Assembly: GCA_017451295.1 (NCBI GenBank) | Contig: JAFSPW010000060.1 | Location: 1 to 38,959, forward strand | Source of the DNA: Clostridia bacterium | GTDB lineage: Bacteria > Bacillota > Clostridia > Christensenellales > CAG-138 | Length of the DNA stretch: 38,959 bases | Direction of reading: 5' to 3' | Part shown: one piece after another, positions 31,222 to 38,734 of the stretch | How the letters are laid out: each line of letters starts with the position of its first letter | Numbering within the stretch: position 1 is the stretch's first letter | Notes under the pieces: model-generated | What the model was told of the DNA's origin: nothing | The model's database searches: none | What the model saw: the letters and a program-made list of their open reading frames with translations, nothing else | Position numbers and translations under genes: made by a program

Positions 31222-32718
31222 ATGATTACCGGGGAACTAAAAAACAAGATCGACGCGCTTTGGAATACGTTCGCAGCGGGTGGCTTGACAAGCCCCCTGG
31301 ATGTGATCGAGCAGATCACCTACCTCATGTTCATCCACGACCTGGACGAAAGCGACAATCGCCGCGCCAAGGAGAGCGCCATGCTGGGCCTGCCCTACGA
31401 CAGCATCTTCGCCGGCCAGGTCCAGGTGGGGGAGCGGCAGATCGATGGCCAGCAGCTTAAGTGGAGCACGTTTAAAGATTACCCTGCAGGCAAGATGTAT
31501 ACCATCATTCAGGAGTGGGTGTTCCCCTTCATCAAAAACCTCCATGGGAACAAAGACAGTGCCTATTCCAAGTATATGGACGACGCCATTTTCAAAATTC
31601 CCACGCCCCTGCTGCTTTCCAAGGTGGTGGATGCGTTGAATGAAATATATCGGCTGATGAACGAGACGCAATCCTCTGATGTACGTGGGGACGTCTATGA
31701 ATACATTTCGTCCAGGCTCCAGGAAAACGGGCTTGCCGGAGCGTTTCGCACCCCCAGACATATCATCAAAATGATGGTGGACTTGGTTGAGCCAAATCCG
31801 GATGATGTCATCTGTGACCCGGCTTGCGGAACGGCAGGCTTTCTCGTTGCCGCCGGAACATATCTGAAAGAGCATTATAAGAAAGAGATATTCTTTGATC
31901 GGCAGAAGAAAGATCATTATATGAACCACATGTTTTATGGCTACGATATGGGTCGCACCATGCTCCGCATCGGCGCCATGAACATGATGACCCACGGCAT
32001 CGACAACCCCTTCATCGAGTATCGGGACAGCCTCTCCGACCAGAACCCGGACCGGGACAGATATTCCCTGATCCTGGCCAATCCCCCCTTCAAGGGGAGC
32101 CTGGACGCGGACATCGTCTCCGCCGACCTCCTCAAGGTCTGCAAGACCAAAAAGACGGAGCTCCTGTTCCTGGCCCTGTTTCTGCGAATGCTCCGGGTGG
32201 GCGGCCGCTGCGCCTGCATCGTGCCCGACGGCGTCCTCTTCGGCTCCTCCACGGCCCACAAAGCCATCCGCAGGGAGCTCATCGAAAACAACCGCCTGGA
32301 GGCCGTGATCTCCATGCCCTCCGGCGTGTTCAAGCCCTACGCCGGCGTGTCCACCGCCGTCCTCGTCTTCACCAAGACCGGCCACGGCGGTACGGACAAC
32401 GTCTGGTTCTACGACATGCAGGCCGACGGCTTCTCCCTGGACGACAAGCGCACCCCCGTCAAGGACAACGACATCCCCGACATCGTGGCCCGGTTCAAAA
32501 ACCTCTCCGCCGAGGCGGACCGCCCCCGCACGGCCCGGTCCTTCCTGGTCCCCAAGGCGGAGATCGCGGCCAACGACTACGACCTGTCCATCAACAAATA
32601 CAAGCAGACCGAATACAAGCCCGTCCAGTACCCGCCCACGGCGGACATCCTGGCGGAGCTGAACGCCCTGGAACAGGAGATCGCCGCCGGGCTGAAGGAA
32701 TTGGAGGGGATGGTGTGA
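31222..32718 (+). CDS. hsdM: type I restriction-modification system DNA methyltransferase subunit
   Basis: A 498-residue N6-adenine methyltransferase. An N-terminal helical domain is followed by the S-adenosylmethionine motif DPACGTAGF at 199-207 and the catalytic NPPF at 287-290. With HsdS it forms the methylase that protects host DNA, and with HsdR it completes the restriction complex. GGAGAG precedes the start. Base use shifts inside the gene: about 31480-31930 is less GC-rich than 31940-32710. The stop TGA shares its last base with the hsdS ATG. Confidence 0.96.
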   Translation: MITGELKNKIDALWNTFAAGGLTSPLDVIEQITYLMFIHDLDESDNRRAKESAMLGLPYDSIFAGQVQVGERQIDGQQLKWSTFKDYPAGKMYTIIQEWVFPFIKNLHGNKDSAYSKYMDDAIFKIPTPLLLSKVVDALNEIYRLMNETQSSDVRGDVYEYISSRLQENGLAGAFRTPRHIIKMMVDLVEPNPDDVICDPACGTAGFLVAAGTYLKEHYKKEIFFDRQKKDHYMNHMFYGYDMGRTMLRIGAMNMMTHGIDNPFIEYRDSLSDQNPDRDRYSLILANPPFKGSLDADIVSADLLKVCKTKKTELLFLALFLRMLRVGGRCACIVPDGVLFGSSTAHKAIRRELIENNRLEAVISMPSGVFKPYAGVSTAVLVFTKTGHGGTDNVWFYDMQADGFSLDDKRTPVKDNDIPDIVARFKNLSAEADRPRTARSFLVPKAEIAANDYDLSINKYKQTEYKPVQYPPTADILAELNALEQEIAAGLKELEGMV

Positions 32719-33899
32719 TGGCAAGGCTGGGGGATATAGCGTCAGTAGTAACGAAAGGTACAACTCCGACATCGCTGGGGTTTGCTTTTGAGAATGAAGG
32801 TATCAACTTTATTAAGATTGAGAGTATTGAAGAAGATGGTAGTTTTATCAAAGAGAAATTCGGTCATATTTCAGAAGAATGTGATCGTGCTCTTTCACGC
32901 TCTCGACTTCAAGAAAACGATATTCTCTTTTCTATCGCAGGAGCCATTGGAAGGACAGCCATTGTAACAAGCGAAATACTGCCAGCAAATACGAATCAGG
33001 CTCTAGCGATCATCCGAATACCGAAAGGGAAGATAGATTATAAATTCCTTGATTATGCGTTGCATTCCGGTGCAATAGTAGATCAGTTTGAAAAGAAAAA
33101 ACAAGGTGTTGCCCAATTGAATATCTCACTTGCGGATGTTCGTAGCTTTCAGATTCCCGATATAAGCATTCAGGAGCAATCAAGAATCGTAGCTATATTG
33201 GGGAAGGTGAATCGTTTGATTTCCCTGCGGAAACAGCAGCTGCAAAAGCTGGATGATCTCGTCAAATCCCGCTTTGTGGAACTATTCGGTGACCCTTCAA
33301 CTAAATCATTGATGTTGCCAATAAAGCCCATGCCGGAAGTTTGCGAGATAATTGATGGTGATCGTGGCGTGAATTATCCAAAGCAAGAGGATTTTTCGGA
33401 AAATGGTTATTGCCTTTTCCTCAATGCGAAGAACGTGACTAAACAAGGCTTTAACTTTGACGAATGTTTGTTTATCACAAAAGAAAAGGATGAAAGCCTA
33501 AGAAAGGGAAAACTGAAACGCGGAGACGTAGTGCTTACGACACGAGGAACGATAGGAAACCTTGCGTTCTATACAAATGATATTCCATTTGAGCATATTC
33601 GCATCAATTCCGGGATGGTTCTGTTACGGATGAAAGAGGAGATTAACGAGCGATTCTTTATAGAACAGTTCAAGTTTTTGCTGGAGGATATAAAGAAAAC
33701 CATTGCAAGCGGTTCTGCTCAACCTCAGCTTCCCATTTCGACCATGAATAAAATCAAGCTGTTAGTACCGCCATTGGAAAAACAAGAGGCTTTTTCCAAT
33801 TATATCTCAAAGGTCGACAATAATCATTTGACTATACAACATGGCCTTGATAAACTTGAACTACTGAAACAATCCTTTATGCAGAAATACTTTGGATGA
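32718..33899 (+). CDS. hsdS: type I restriction-modification system specificity subunit
   Basis: A 393-residue protein with two target-recognition domains (about 1-160 and 200-365), each followed by a helical spacer. The first spacer contains LRKQQLQKLDDLVKSRFVEL and the FGDP motif seen in many HsdS proteins; the last residues LELLKQSFMQKYF form the second. The subunit reads the bipartite DNA target. GGAGGGG lies eight bases before the ATG at 32718, which I prefer to the GTG at 32715. The recognition-domain DNA is visibly AT-rich beside hsdM, a usual sign of exchange of specificity. Confidence 0.93.
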   Translation: MARLGDIASVVTKGTTPTSLGFAFENEGINFIKIESIEEDGSFIKEKFGHISEECDRALSRSRLQENDILFSIAGAIGRTAIVTSEILPANTNQALAIIRIPKGKIDYKFLDYALHSGAIVDQFEKKKQGVAQLNISLADVRSFQIPDISIQEQSRIVAILGKVNRLISLRKQQLQKLDDLVKSRFVELFGDPSTKSLMLPIKPMPEVCEIIDGDRGVNYPKQEDFSENGYCLFLNAKNVTKQGFNFDECLFITKEKDESLRKGKLKRGDVVLTTRGTIGNLAFYTNDIPFEHIRINSGMVLLRMKEEINERFFIEQFKFLLEDIKKTIASGSAQPQLPISTMNKIKLLVPPLEKQEAFSNYISKVDNNHLTIQHGLDKLELLKQSFMQKYFG

Positions 33900-33906
33900 G
33901 GTGAAA

Positions 33907-34776
33907 ATGATTTTTGTTGCAGATATGCAATCGAATAAAGGTGAGCATAAGGTAACGGGTAAGGAAGAAATGCCCTTTGAAGAATATCGAGAATTTATGC
34001 ATGGCTTTGATTTTTTAAAAGAAGTGTCCCAAGTTAAGCCAGCATATGAAATTGTTTGTAGAAATGGCTATGAACTTATTAGCTTTATGGACAATAAGAA
34101 CTTGATGAATCTCTATGAAAGCAAGAAGATGGAATTAGAGAAACTAGGTGTTGAAGGAAACAGAATGCTATTCAATTTCTGTGTTTCTTTTCGAACTTTT
34201 ATGGATTATGCTGCGAGAGCAGTTTCACATAGAAAAGAGGCAAAAAACGCTTTTGATTTGTTCGTAAAAAAACTGTTTGACAAAAGCCTAGAATACCGTT
34301 TGTTTTATAAGTTGCGTAATTTCTGCGCACATTATGCCTTTCCGTTTTCTAGGGTAGAGTGTTCATCCCCAGGAAAGATTGAAATCATATGTGAAAAAAG
34401 GCATTTGTTGGAATATGATGGATGGGGTCGCGCTAAAGAGGACATTGAAAAGATGCCAGACATGATCAATATATGTCAGCATGTCAATCAATTGCTAGTA
34501 ATCGTGACCGTAGTATTGCAGCAAACTTTTTACTTTTTTACCGAAGACTATTTCAATGCAAACAAGGCTATTGCAGAATTAGCAGAGAAGCATTCCATTC
34601 AACACCCCATTTTTCTAGAAAGAAGTGAAATTGGTGATCTTTCACTTCATCCCATACCATTTGAAAGCATTAAATCAGGAATGGATATTATTAAAAGTCA
34701 TCCAAACGTTCATTTTTCACTTGTGAATAAAGCCGAAGAGATGAAGATCACGTACTCAGAGACAAAAACTCAATAA
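33907..34776 (+). CDS. unknown protein with HEPN-type Rx4H motif inside the type I R-M operon
   Basis: A 289-residue protein of no family I can name. Residues about 95-145 are helical and end in YKLRNFCAHYAFPF, where R137 and H142 form an Rx4H motif with the RN...H pattern typical of HEPN domains, many of which are RNases of toxin and anti-phage systems. The remaining half has no obvious motif. The ATG at 33907 has GAGG five bases upstream; the gene begins seven bases after hsdS. Its DNA is strongly AT-rich, like hsdS. The position between hsdS and hsdR suggests an accessory or guard role, which is inference. Confidence 0.75.
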   Translation: MIFVADMQSNKGEHKVTGKEEMPFEEYREFMHGFDFLKEVSQVKPAYEIVCRNGYELISFMDNKNLMNLYESKKMELEKLGVEGNRMLFNFCVSFRTFMDYAARAVSHRKEAKNAFDLFVKKLFDKSLEYRLFYKLRNFCAHYAFPFSRVECSSPGKIEIICEKRHLLEYDGWGRAKEDIEKMPDMINICQHVNQLLVIVTVVLQQTFYFFTEDYFNANKAIAELAEKHSIQHPIFLERSEIGDLSLHPIPFESIKSGMDIIKSHPNVHFSLVNKAEEMKITYSETKTQ

Positions 34777-34815
34777 GATGATAGCATATAAAAACCATAA
34801 CGAAGGAGGCATAAG

Positions 34816-35454
34816 ATGAGCAAAGAACCTATCATTTATCGGTTAAATGATGATATATCATTTAGAAAGTGCTCCCTAATTGACGGAAAACTTGAAAAGT
34901 ATGGGGATTGTACAGAGTTTTATGAGACTCAAGAGAATTTTGTCACATTCTATACCTGCAAGGATAATGGAATCCACCTGCATTGCACAAAGCATCCAGC
35001 AATTGAACTTGACTATGTGCCTGACGGATATGATAGCTATCTACAGTGTCGATGTTGTAAAAATGAAATAAGAGTAAAAAGCAAAGATGAGATAATACGT
35101 AAATGTCTAAAACAATTGAACATGGAGATATTCAAGAATGCAAAGTTAATCCGCTTGGATGACTGGTATACCGCTGAAGTTAAGGAACCAACCATAAAAA
35201 CAGAATCAGGGTATTGGGTCAAGACTGATGTGAAGACAGATCGAGATGGTGATACAATTGTTGTAATTTATATCGGACATAAAGATTCCTCACAGAAAGC
35301 CCAATACTTTATCAAGCCAGAGAAGCATCAATTGACATGTGACCATAAGGATATGGACCCGGCTAAGATTATATCGAAAATAGAAGTAACGCTTAGAGAT
35401 AGATTCTTAACTCAGCAATATGACTACAACGGGGAGAGCAATGACCAACTTTGA
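34816..35454 (+). CDS. unknown protein with a CxxH/CxxC-type cluster inside the type I R-M operon
   Basis: A 212-residue protein that I do not recognise. C57 and H60 (CTKH) followed by C78, C80 and C81 (QCRCCKN) could form a zinc ribbon. A second half (about 95-205) has alternating charged and hydrophobic residues. AAGGAGG lies seven bases before the ATG. The DNA is AT-rich. Its end overlaps the start of hsdR by 14 bases, so the two are probably co-translated, and the gene belongs to the operon rather than being a stray insertion. Confidence 0.75.
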   Translation: MSKEPIIYRLNDDISFRKCSLIDGKLEKYGDCTEFYETQENFVTFYTCKDNGIHLHCTKHPAIELDYVPDGYDSYLQCRCCKNEIRVKSKDEIIRKCLKQLNMEIFKNAKLIRLDDWYTAEVKEPTIKTESGYWVKTDVKTDRDGDTIVVIYIGHKDSSQKAQYFIKPEKHQLTCDHKDMDPAKIISKIEVTLRDRFLTQQYDYNGESNDQL

Positions 35455-38400
35455 TTTTCTCTTAACCGAGCCCAAATTCGAGGCCTTCAGCCGGGCGGCG
35501 GTGAACGCCGAGCGGGTGTATGGGGTGGACGCCGCCGCGGCGGTCATCGGCTGCCGCCGGGCCATGGAGTTTGCCGTGAAATGGATGTACTCCGTGGACG
35601 GGGCGCTGCGGACGCCATGGCAGGAAAACCCCACCCTGGCGATTCTCATGGGCACGGAGGAGTTTCGGGACGTGGTGGGGGGCGACCTCTGGAAGCGGAT
35701 GGACTTCGTCCGCCGGGTGGCCAACGGCGCCGCCCACTCCGGGAAGGCCGTGGACCGGGATCAGGCTTTGCTGTGCCTTGAGAACCTGTTCGTGTTCCTG
35801 GACTTCGTGGCCTGCTGCTATGCCGACGCCTACGAGCCCCGGGCCTTCGACCGCGCCCTCCCCGGCCGGGAGGAGCCTCCGGCGGCGGTGGTGGAGGCGG
35901 AGAAGAAGCTGTCCGACCTGCTGGCGGAGAACGAGTCCCTGAAAGCGGAGCTCACCGCCCGGCGGGAGGCCCAGCAGGAGAGCTACGTGCCCAAGCCTCT
36001 GGAGCTCAGCGAGTACAAGACCCGGAAGCTGTATATCGACGCCATGCTGGCCGACGCCGGCTGGGTGGAGGGGAAGGATTGGCTGAACGAGGTGGAGCTC
36101 CCCGGCATGCCCAATAAGAGCGAGGTGGGCTACGCGGACTACGTGCTCTATGGCGACGACGGCCGGCCCCTGGCGGTGGTGGAAGCGAAGCGCACCTGCG
36201 TGGACGTTTCGAAGGGGCGGCAGCAGGCCAAGCTCTACGCCGACCTGCTGGAGCAGAAGTACCACCGGCGGCCCGTGATCTTCCTCACCAACGGCTTCGA
36301 CACCCGCATCCAGGACAACCTGTACCCCGAGCGCCGCTGCGCGGCACTTTGGTCCAAGCGGGACCTGGAGAAGCTGTTCAACCTGCAGACCATGCGCCTC
36401 GGCCTGAAGCACGTGACCGTGGATAGGGCCATCGCCGGCCGGTACTACCAGGAGGGGGCCATCCGGGCCGTCTGCGAAGCTTTCGGGGAGAAGAACCGGC
36501 GCAAGGCCCTGCTGGTCATGGCCACGGGCTCCGGCAAGACCCGGACGGTCATCGCCCTGGTGAAGGTGCTGCTGGATCGGGGCTGGGTGAAAAACGTGCT
36601 GTTCCTGGCCGACCGGAATTCCCTGGTGACCCAGGCGAAGCGCGCCTTCGTGAACCTGCTGCCGGACCTGTCCGTCACGAACCTCTGCGAGGAGAAGGAC
36701 AACTACACGGCCCACTGCGTCTTTTCCACCTATCAGACCATGATGAACGTGATCGACACGGCGGAGGATCGGGAGGGGAAGCTCTACACCTGCGGCCACT
36801 TCGACCTGGTCATCTGCGACGAGGCCCACCGGTCTATCTACAACAAGTATCAGGACATCTTCACCTGGTTCGACGCGCCCCTCGTCGGCCTCACCGCCAC
36901 GCCCAAGGACGAGATCGACAAGAACACCTACCGCATCTTCGAGCTGGAGAGCGGCGTCCCCACCTACGGCTACGAACTCAGTCAGGCGGTGAAGGACGGG
37001 TATCTGGTGGATTTCGTCAGCGTGGAGACCACGCTGAAGTTCATCCAGCAGGGCATCGTCTACGACGAGCTCTCCGACGAGGACAAGGAGGAATACGAGA
37101 ACACCTTCACCGACGAGAACGGGGAGCTGCCCGAGAGCATCGCCTCCTCGGCGCTGAACGAGTGGATCTTCAACGAGGACACCATCCGCCAGGTGCTGAA
37201 CGTGCTCATGACCAACGGCCTCAGGATCGACTACGGCAACAAGCTCGGCAAGACCATCATCTTCGCCAAGAACCACCGGCACGCGGAGAAGATATTGGAG
37301 GTATTCGGGAAGGAATATCCCCACCTGCCCGGCTACGCCAAGGTCATCGACAACTACATGACCTACGCCCAGAGCGCCATAGACGAATTTTCCGACCCGA
37401 AAAAGCTGCCCCAGATCGCTATCTCCGTGGACATGCTGGACACGGGCATCGACGTACCCGAAGTGCTGAACCTGGTCTTCTTCAAGAAGGTCATGAGCAA
37501 GGCCAAGTTCTGGCAGATGATCGGCCGCGGCACCCGCCTCTGCCCGGGGCTGCTGGACGGGAAGGACAAGGAGCGGTTCTACATCTTCGACTTCTGCGGC
37601 AACTTCGAGTTCTTCCGCATGAACCAGGGCAAGGCCACGGCTAACCTCCTGGCCCTCCAGGGCGCTCTCTTCACCCTGAAGGCCCAGATCGCCTATAAGC
37701 TCCAGGATCTGGCCTACCAGACCCCGGAGCTTATCGAGTTCCGCAAGGCCCTGGTGGAGGATATGGTGCGGAAGGTCCGGGAGCTGAACCGGGACAACTT
37801 CGCCGTGAAGCAGCACCTGAAATACGTAGAGAAGTACGCCGATCCGGCGAGCTATAATGCCCTGACCTACGAGGACACCCTTCTGATGGACCAGGAGCTG
37901 GCGCCCCTGGTGACGCCGGACGCGGACGACCCCAAGGCCCTCCGCTTCGACGCCCTGCTGTACGGGATCGAGCTGGCGTACCTGGCGGGGAAGCGGTACG
38001 GCAAGGCCCGCGGCGACCTCATGAAGAAGGTTACCGCCGTGTCTAACGTGGCCAACATCCCGGAGATCATGGCCCAGGCGGAGCTGATCGACAGGATCCT
38101 GCACACGGACTATGTGGATACCGCCGGGATCAACGAGTTTGAGACCATCCGGGAGAACCTGCGGGGGCTGATGAAATACATCCCCCTGGGCGGCGCCACC
38201 TACGACACCCATTTCGACGACGAGATCCTGTCCCTGGAGTGGCGTGATTCCGAGCTGGAGAACGATGATCTAAAGAACTACAAGGCCAAGGCCGAGTTCT
38301 ACGTGCGCCAGCACCGGGACAACGCCATGATCCAAAAGCTCCGCGGCAACGTTCCCCTGACCACGGAGGACATGAAGGAGCTGGAATCCATCCTGTGGAG

Positions 38401-38734
38401 CCAGGTAGGCACCCGGCAGGAGTACGAGGCGGAATACGGCAAGAAGCCGCTGGGCGAGTTCGTCCGGGAGATTGTGGGCATGGACATGGCCGCGGCCAAG
38501 GCGGCCTTCGCGGAGTATCTGAACGACGGTTCCCTGGACAGCCGCCAGATCTACTTCGTGAACCAGATCGTGGAATACATCGTCCACAACGGCCTTATGA
38601 AGGACCTGTCCGTCCTCCAGGAGCCGCCCTTCACAGACCAAGGCAGCATCGTAGAGATATTCACCGATCTGACCCTCTGGCTGGGCATCCGCAAAGCCAT
38701 CGAGCGCGTCAATCAAAACGCCATCGCGGCGTAA
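35441..38734 (+). CDS. hsdR: type I restriction enzyme endonuclease/translocase subunit
   Basis: A 1097-residue protein. Residues 1-135 are a DUF4145-like (HEPN-related) domain with R92 to H99 in RVANGAAH. A PD-(D/E)xK nuclease follows with D233 (GYADYVL), E248 and K250 (VVEAKRT). The SF2 translocase has Walker A ATGSGKT at 361-367, DEAH at 460-463 and LTATP, and the rest matches the C-terminal region of HsdR. It pulls DNA past the complex and cuts at a distance when the target is unmethylated. The ATG at 35441 has GGGGAG four bases upstream. The DNA is GC-rich with a different codon habit from the AT-rich genes before it. Confidence 0.95.
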   Translation: MTNFDFLLTEPKFEAFSRAAVNAERVYGVDAAAAVIGCRRAMEFAVKWMYSVDGALRTPWQENPTLAILMGTEEFRDVVGGDLWKRMDFVRRVANGAAHSGKAVDRDQALLCLENLFVFLDFVACCYADAYEPRAFDRALPGREEPPAAVVEAEKKLSDLLAENESLKAELTARREAQQESYVPKPLELSEYKTRKLYIDAMLADAGWVEGKDWLNEVELPGMPNKSEVGYADYVLYGDDGRPLAVVEAKRTCVDVSKGRQQAKLYADLLEQKYHRRPVIFLTNGFDTRIQDNLYPERRCAALWSKRDLEKLFNLQTMRLGLKHVTVDRAIAGRYYQEGAIRAVCEAFGEKNRRKALLVMATGSGKTRTVIALVKVLLDRGWVKNVLFLADRNSLVTQAKRAFVNLLPDLSVTNLCEEKDNYTAHCVFSTYQTMMNVIDTAEDREGKLYTCGHFDLVICDEAHRSIYNKYQDIFTWFDAPLVGLTATPKDEIDKNTYRIFELESGVPTYGYELSQAVKDGYLVDFVSVETTLKFIQQGIVYDELSDEDKEEYENTFTDENGELPESIASSALNEWIFNEDTIRQVLNVLMTNGLRIDYGNKLGKTIIFAKNHRHAEKILEVFGKEYPHLPGYAKVIDNYMTYAQSAIDEFSDPKKLPQIAISVDMLDTGIDVPEVLNLVFFKKVMSKAKFWQMIGRGTRLCPGLLDGKDKERFYIFDFCGNFEFFRMNQGKATANLLALQGALFTLKAQIAYKLQDLAYQTPELIEFRKALVEDMVRKVRELNRDNFAVKQHLKYVEKYADPASYNALTYEDTLLMDQELAPLVTPDADDPKALRFDALLYGIELAYLAGKRYGKARGDLMKKVTAVSNVANIPEIMAQAELIDRILHTDYVDTAGINEFETIRENLRGLMKYIPLGGATYDTHFDDEILSLEWRDSELENDDLKNYKAKAEFYVRQHRDNAMIQKLRGNVPLTTEDMKELESILWSQVGTRQEYEAEYGKKPLGEFVREIVGMDMAAAKAAFAEYLNDGSLDSRQIYFVNQIVEYIVHNGLMKDLSVLQEPPFTDQGSIVEIFTDLTLWLGIRKAIERVNQNAIAA

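Follow-up and report, generated by a model that had tools for sequence, protein, structure and literature searches.

Two AT-rich genes separate hsdS from hsdR in a type I restriction-modification (R-M) operon of a Clostridia bacterium, which raises the question of what genes in this position are for, and whether they serve the restriction system, each other, or neither. The operon lies in a 38,959-nucleotide stretch of contig JAFSPW010000060.1 (assembly GCA_017451295.1), referred to here as the window, and reads hsdM-hsdS-X-Y-hsdR, all on one strand. X (33907..34776, + strand) encodes a protein of 289 amino acids (aa) and Y (34816..35454, +) one of 212 aa, and neither reached the cut-off of any Pfam, PADLOC or NCBIfam model.

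X and its relatives

X matches PHROG 30874, a family without assigned function, at 7.5e-23, and its relative on plasmid pBS32 does so at 2e-195. A reading made from the letters alone (hereafter the sequence-only reading) had singled out R137 and H142, located in YKLRNFCAHYAF, as the RN...H pattern of HEPN domains, and both residues stand as described: the motif R137-N138-F-C-A-H142 is encoded at 34315..34332 (+), and in an alignment of nine X-family sequences from eight lineages (X included, the other eight being 16-25% identical to it) the only invariant residues were M1, Y130, R131, R137 and H142. Residue 138 was N in eight of the nine and D in the relative at locus L080. The HEPN signature is described as Rx4-6H with a polar residue following the R, and the domain beyond the motif as poorly conserved between families (PMC3710099; this and the other papers cited below are drawn on in part); X carries this signature, conserved across its family. 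With R and H invariant in 9/9 sequences, X is probably a HEPN-type protein, as had been proposed, and as a HEPN-type family it is new as far as the searched family libraries go.

What lifts this assignment above chance is the conservation of R137 and H142 among relatives, not the mere presence of the motif: the odds that two positions named in advance fall among four invariant ones (M1 excluded) are about 1.5 in 10,000 (6 of 41,328 position pairs). Several observations limit its weight. The motif alone is weak: among 363 open reading frames (ORFs) of at least 200 aa, called mechanically in the collected DNA with X relatives included, 23 contain R[ND]x3H and 115 contain Rx4H. The odds just given look better than they are, since it was the motif-bearing part of X that led to five of the eight relatives, and fold comparison of the structure model did not single out HEPN. 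The model itself is a helical bundle in which the motif, RNFCAH, lies at the end of a modelled helix (128-143) and is followed by a hairpin (148-163), with a poorly modelled C-terminal stretch (231-289). LGN/Inscuteable, metavinculin and FAT domains appeared as fold neighbours and were taken as generic bundles, a kind of match against which the comparison tool itself cautions. No profile similarity of X to known HEPN families was detected with Pfam, NCBIfam or further profile comparisons, none was found to the ApeA-like and PF05168 proteins that occupy the same position in related operons (see below), and a Pfam scan revealed no ABC or AAA ATPase domain.

X is rare. Matches were obtained in 2 of 151 related genomes and 4 of 388 genomes of the phylum (the window's own genome counted in both), in 1 of 391 genomes of the class, namely the window's own, and in 1 of 299 genomes in the search that found G852, a genome from the class of Metabacillus. 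Besides the G852 protein, the relatives are X' in G008, of the same genus as the window; proteins on 36 Bacillus plasmid records, those listed being B. subtilis plasmids of ~84 kb, pBS32 included; proteins on two viral contigs that stand near these plasmid relatives; a protein of Marinobacter phage PS3, encoded between the portal gene and a capsid and scaffold gene; and proteins in three genomes that share the window's phylum, G1044, G1247 and G1193. A single-sequence search of genome contigs with X gave no match, nor did the relatives from G008 and Marinobacter when viral contigs were scanned with either as a single protein; phages searched directly with X yielded none, and one match came via the pBS32 relative.

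Members of the X family stand at R-M loci in three of eight lineages (the window, G008 and G1247), and no R-M gene was seen near the relatives in the prophage-like plasmid pBS32 and in PS3, G852 and G1193, so R-M appears not to be required for X. The G1247 relative (L080 512-5377) lies beside a Pfam-confirmed C5 methylase, a DUF4928 gene and Vsr, with a second ORF that resembles a C5 methylase by eye only; this is a different type of R-M locus from the type I operon.

A cargo slot between hsdS and hsdR

HsdR relatives (E <=1e-100) were found at 21 places in 18 of 201 related genomes, the window's own included. Two of the places are halves of the G008 gene, 13 slots were compared, and seven places were omitted as partial or edge copies (G075, G000:C102, G010, G144), a deletion (G006) or shufflons (G015, G587:C3). 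ORFs of at least 80 aa were present in 12 of the 13 slots, 24 in total, and formed just four related pairs. In nine close operons HsdR was 70-82% and HsdS 21-29% identical to the window's, and HsdM was 75-78% identical in the eight other than G073, whose cut copy gave 72% across 57 residues (for G035 a script figure of 18% was taken as a wrong frame, and the BLAST figure of 76% used). The GC content of the gap was 35-38% in nine slots of GC-rich hosts, the window included, and 42% in the AT-rich G098. Judged from these sequences, the hsdS-hsdR gap is a slot for cargo that differs from one relative to the next.

The inclusion of defence-type genes among this cargo is supported by several of the loads. 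The G063 slot holds an ApeA_NTD1 protein (8.5e-6, just above the cut-off, with its HEPN matches below their own cut-offs) and an Abi_alpha/PDC-S47 protein (5.5e-58); G012 an OLD-like ATPase (AAA_15, 1.6e-14); G073 a PF05168 HEPN protein (1.4e-4, just above the cut-off) and a PDC-S60-like protein; G587:C4 a ParE toxin with a Phd/YefM antitoxin; G008 a DUF2971 (PDC-S31) protein and X'; and G053 and G069 a DUF4160 protein (G053 was scanned, and the pair are 99.5% identical). Thus by some evidence 4 of the 13 slots carry a HEPN-type load: X, X', the ApeA-like protein and the PF05168 protein. Further loads of 195, 198, 250, 209 and 314 aa matched no family, G136 has an empty slot, and the 157-aa ORF in the G098 slot is of simple composition and may not be a gene. 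In G015 and G587:C3 a recombinase and extra hsdS copies stand in place of a load.

The left edge of the slot is the 3' tip of hsdS, GLDKLELLKQSFMQKYFG (+), as judged from the junctions and from tail remnants in G008. The hsdS end extended by two bases (TTTGG, any base, TGAGG) is common to the window, G012, G053, G069 and G008, and the genes that follow it differ, G053 and G069 excepted; seven matches to this tail pattern were found in 6 of the 201 genomes, every one at this slot. We infer that loads are probably exchanged when the hsdS tail and the hsdR head, both conserved, undergo homologous recombination.

Repeated exchange of cargo seems to have left a fossil in G008, whose hsdR shares 87-93% identity with that of the window. 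X', which is 23-25% identical to X, is preceded by the DUF2971 gene and an hsdS tail and directly followed by a remnant of the hsdR head (L059 2842-2902), which places it in the same slot as X. Remnants of the hsdS tail lie at 559-629, 1074-1143 and 2996-3027 of L059; among 11 slots scanned such remnants were found in G008 only, and a control of 50 block-shuffled rounds gave one match. A membrane-protein-like ORF in this region (G008:C1, L059 559-3027) runs into an hsdS tail. The G008 hsdR apparently lacks its start codon and is broken across two frames, for which an assembly gap or error may be responsible, and no close hsdM was found in this genome, which is 77% complete and may be missing other Hsd genes. 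The X' reading frame is open and retains R, N and H.

In the window itself, hsdM (31222..32718, +) encodes the DNA methyltransferase subunit (Pfam N6_Mtase 1.8e-62 and HsdM_N; PADLOC MTase_I 3.6e-180), hsdS (32715..33899, +) the specificity subunit (Methylase_S 4.7e-29) and hsdR (35441..38734, +) an EcoEI-like restriction and translocation subunit (PADLOC REase_I 2.4e-160; ResIII, EcoEI_R_C). The hsdR start, ATG 35441, is the right edge of the slot and is supported by close orthologues, which begin MTNF. The tight packing claimed earlier was confirmed, with 7 bases between the end of hsdS and the start of X and a 14-base overlap of Y with hsdR. X (35.3% GC) and Y (36.8%) are AT-rich as had been noted, beside 57.6% for hsdM and 62.5% for hsdR, but hsdS is AT-rich too (40.4%), and the AT-rich block is therefore S-X-Y, not X-Y alone. 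Between 31000 and 35800, promoter-like sites (6, against 7.1 in shuffles) and terminator-like sites (6, against 5.5) gave no signal. HsdR residues 23-115 (35507..35785, +) form a DUF4145 domain (PF13643, 3.6e-8), which is alignable at the N-terminus of orthologues; as DUF4145 is a HEPN family in the survey of PMC3710099, a HEPN-family domain is already present in the operon.

Other arrangements were seen at related loci. A further hsdR, incomplete and 86% identical, lies at the edge of another contig of the window's own genome (G000:C102:3-1556) and perhaps belongs to a second operon of the same type; a single hsdM was found in this genome. In G006 (L064 10677-13781) hsdM is followed by the 3' part of hsdR alone, with hsdS, the slot and the 5' part of hsdR missing. 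L010, L027, L063 and L065 are shufflon-like type I loci, in which hsdS is followed by a tyrosine recombinase and is present in additional copies. The hsdM-hsdS gaps of L052, L054 and L057 also carry cargo (a 226-aa protein; a PDC-S13-like protein of 287 aa with one of 137 aa; and a 252-aa Schlafen AlbA_2 protein), resembling the M-linked ORFs of Campylobacter.

Y and the possible action of X

Y was found in only one of 191 genomes in an even draw of the class, the window's own. Its relatives, 51-61% identical, occur in G048, on three viral contigs and at 17 genome loci, which gives 20 distinct loci with the window included, L009 being counted with L011 and L004 with L027. C78 and C81, a CxxC pair, are invariant in all 20, as is C97. 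Of the other zinc ligands proposed earlier (C57, H60, C78, C81), C57 is nearly invariant, but H60 is replaced by N or D in 3 of the 19 sequences that reach it (L008, L016, L019), and C19, C32, C48, H54 and H56, themselves nearly invariant, are better conserved. No zinc profile scored above cut-off.

An R-M gene or PADLOC-model neighbour accompanies Y at 9 of the 20 loci, the neighbours of the other loci having been only partly tested. Hsd genes are present at the window, L008 (hsdR), L010 and L027 (hsdM, hsdS and a recombinase, with Y directly after the recombinase) and L021 (hsdM, with PDC-S14); the other neighbours are PDC-S31 at L012, a REase_III-like protein at L015, mREase_IV-like and Orf5/HEC-06 proteins at L020, and PDC-S01 at L022. 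The PADLOC check covered ten proteins at 9 of the 20 loci and gave no match at four of them (L011, L013, L014, L016), L016 having a RES-domain neighbour.

Y had been proposed as a partner or sensor of X, a role that its distribution does not bear out. X gave no match in the 17 Y genomes (a set with no positive control inside it, searched with the alignment that found G852), and Y gave none in G008 or in the plasmid collection that holds X relatives; these comparisons define the scope of the result, Y not having been sought in G852, G1044, G1193 and G1247. The lack of co-occurrence where it was checked indicates separate loads, and Y is best explained as a mobile gene independent of X, which does not need it; it may bind zinc and would have its own role. 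That the two form a toxin with its antitoxin or sensor is accordingly the least probable of the readings considered: they are adjacent, on the same strand and in a single operon, but X was absent from 17/17 Y genomes, Y from G008 and the plasmids, and neither an MNT nor any other antitoxin profile matched Y.

The reading we favour, by a modest degree of confidence, is that X is a stand-alone, infection-triggered endoribonuclease of abortive type carried as a load of the slot, with Y as an independent passenger. Infection would be sensed and X, probably as a dimer by analogy with the HEPN literature, would be activated; paired R137-N-x3-H142 sites of the dimer would then cut cellular or phage RNA. 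The usual RNA target of HEPN effectors is tRNA. Such cutting would be expected to stop translation and growth, as a second line behind restriction, and the position of X in the hsd operon would allow it to be expressed together with restriction. The relatives without R-M genes (pBS32, PS3, G852, G1193) suggest that X would work on its own.

In a possible but clearly less probable alternative, the HsdMSR complex holds X silent and releases it once the complex is blocked or disrupted by an anti-restriction protein of a phage, as in the model for PrrC, whose RNase is kept silent by the R-M enzyme (PMC3710099). X lies inside an hsd operon, as prrC does (PMC3710099, PMC12707154), a related X occupies the same slot in G008, and a 2013 survey linked at least 16 HEPN clades to R-M, read there as second-line defence (PMC3710099). 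Yet relatives of X lie at places where R-M genes were not seen, X has no ABC or AAA domain, and the open X' beside a broken hsdR, in a genome with no close hsdM, speaks against a working HsdR as an obligatory leash. It is unlikely that X is instead a non-catalytic HEPN-like accessory that binds RNA or protein, such as one that modulates the Hsd complex. The DUF4145 domain of HsdR would fit such a role and the X model is no proof of catalysis, but the residues conserved in X are R and H, on which catalysis by HEPN RNases depends, and X is found elsewhere with no Hsd genes in sight. Less likely again is that X and Y are neutral passengers, recombined in and on their way out; the high turnover of the slot and the rarity of X would agree with this, but both frames are open, the X motif and the Y cysteines are kept over long distances, and several slot loads are defence-type genes.

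A bolder, rather doubtful extension is that the hsdS tail and hsdR head are built-in recombination handles, that this operon family serves as a docking frame through which strains swap abortive effectors encoded by single genes, often of HEPN type, along with the target-recognition gene hsdS, and that X is a new RNase effector tuned to the frame and sensing restriction failure.

Significance and comparison with known systems

PHROG 30874 and its relatives, unexplained in the family libraries used, gain a functional hypothesis from this locus, and the B. subtilis relative on pBS32 (WP_009968507.1, in strain NCIB 3610) makes it testable in a laboratory strain. Within one operon family, the 13-slot comparison indicates fast reloading of the hsdS-hsdR gap while hsdM and hsdR change slowly, the stacked remnants of G008 being a trace of how reloading happens, and the slot offers a practical place to seek further unrecognised defence genes. 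Payne et al. have reportedly written on embedded defences. None of the titles listed by literature searches dealt with X, Y or PHROG 30874, names that were not themselves searched for.

Other systems combine R-M operons with additional genes. DarTG2 in the RRDM island of enteropathogenic Escherichia coli (EPEC) is likewise a second defence module between hsdS and hsdR, and a gene pair occupies that position in four other genomes besides EPEC (PMC12255303). It differs in belonging to E. coli and relatives, in being regulated by RptR, which was not looked for around the X-Y operon, and in its protein families. TgvAB, on VPI-2 of Vibrio cholerae, also consists of two once-uncharacterised genes within a type I operon and provides phage defence of its own, independent of HsdR restriction (PMC11411939); it is of GmrSD type and needs both genes, whereas X and Y occur apart. 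PrrC with EcoprrI is an RNase gene with a HEPN domain in a type I operon (PMC3710099, PMC12707154), but PrrC has an ABC-ATPase part and X has no ATPase domain. In the HEPN-MNT toxin SO_3166 the motif RNIAVH stands at a helix end, with R, N and H needed for toxicity (PMC4621449), and the X model shares this RNx3H placement; X differs by the hairpin at 148-163 and the poorly modelled 231-289, and as to the pairing, no MNT profile matched Y, hsdS or hsdR, and X has no MNT neighbour.

The closest precedent for the position is an old observation, the rlo (R-linked ORF) genes between hsdS and hsdR of Campylobacter jejuni (PMC5183652, PMC4619093). X and X' qualify as R-linked ORFs by their location in the window and in G008; X and Y have no Pfam family at cut-off and so are neither DUF262 proteins (RloF) nor ABC ATPases (RloC). 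As far as the searched libraries go, X is a new family, but the kind of site that it occupies is already familiar.
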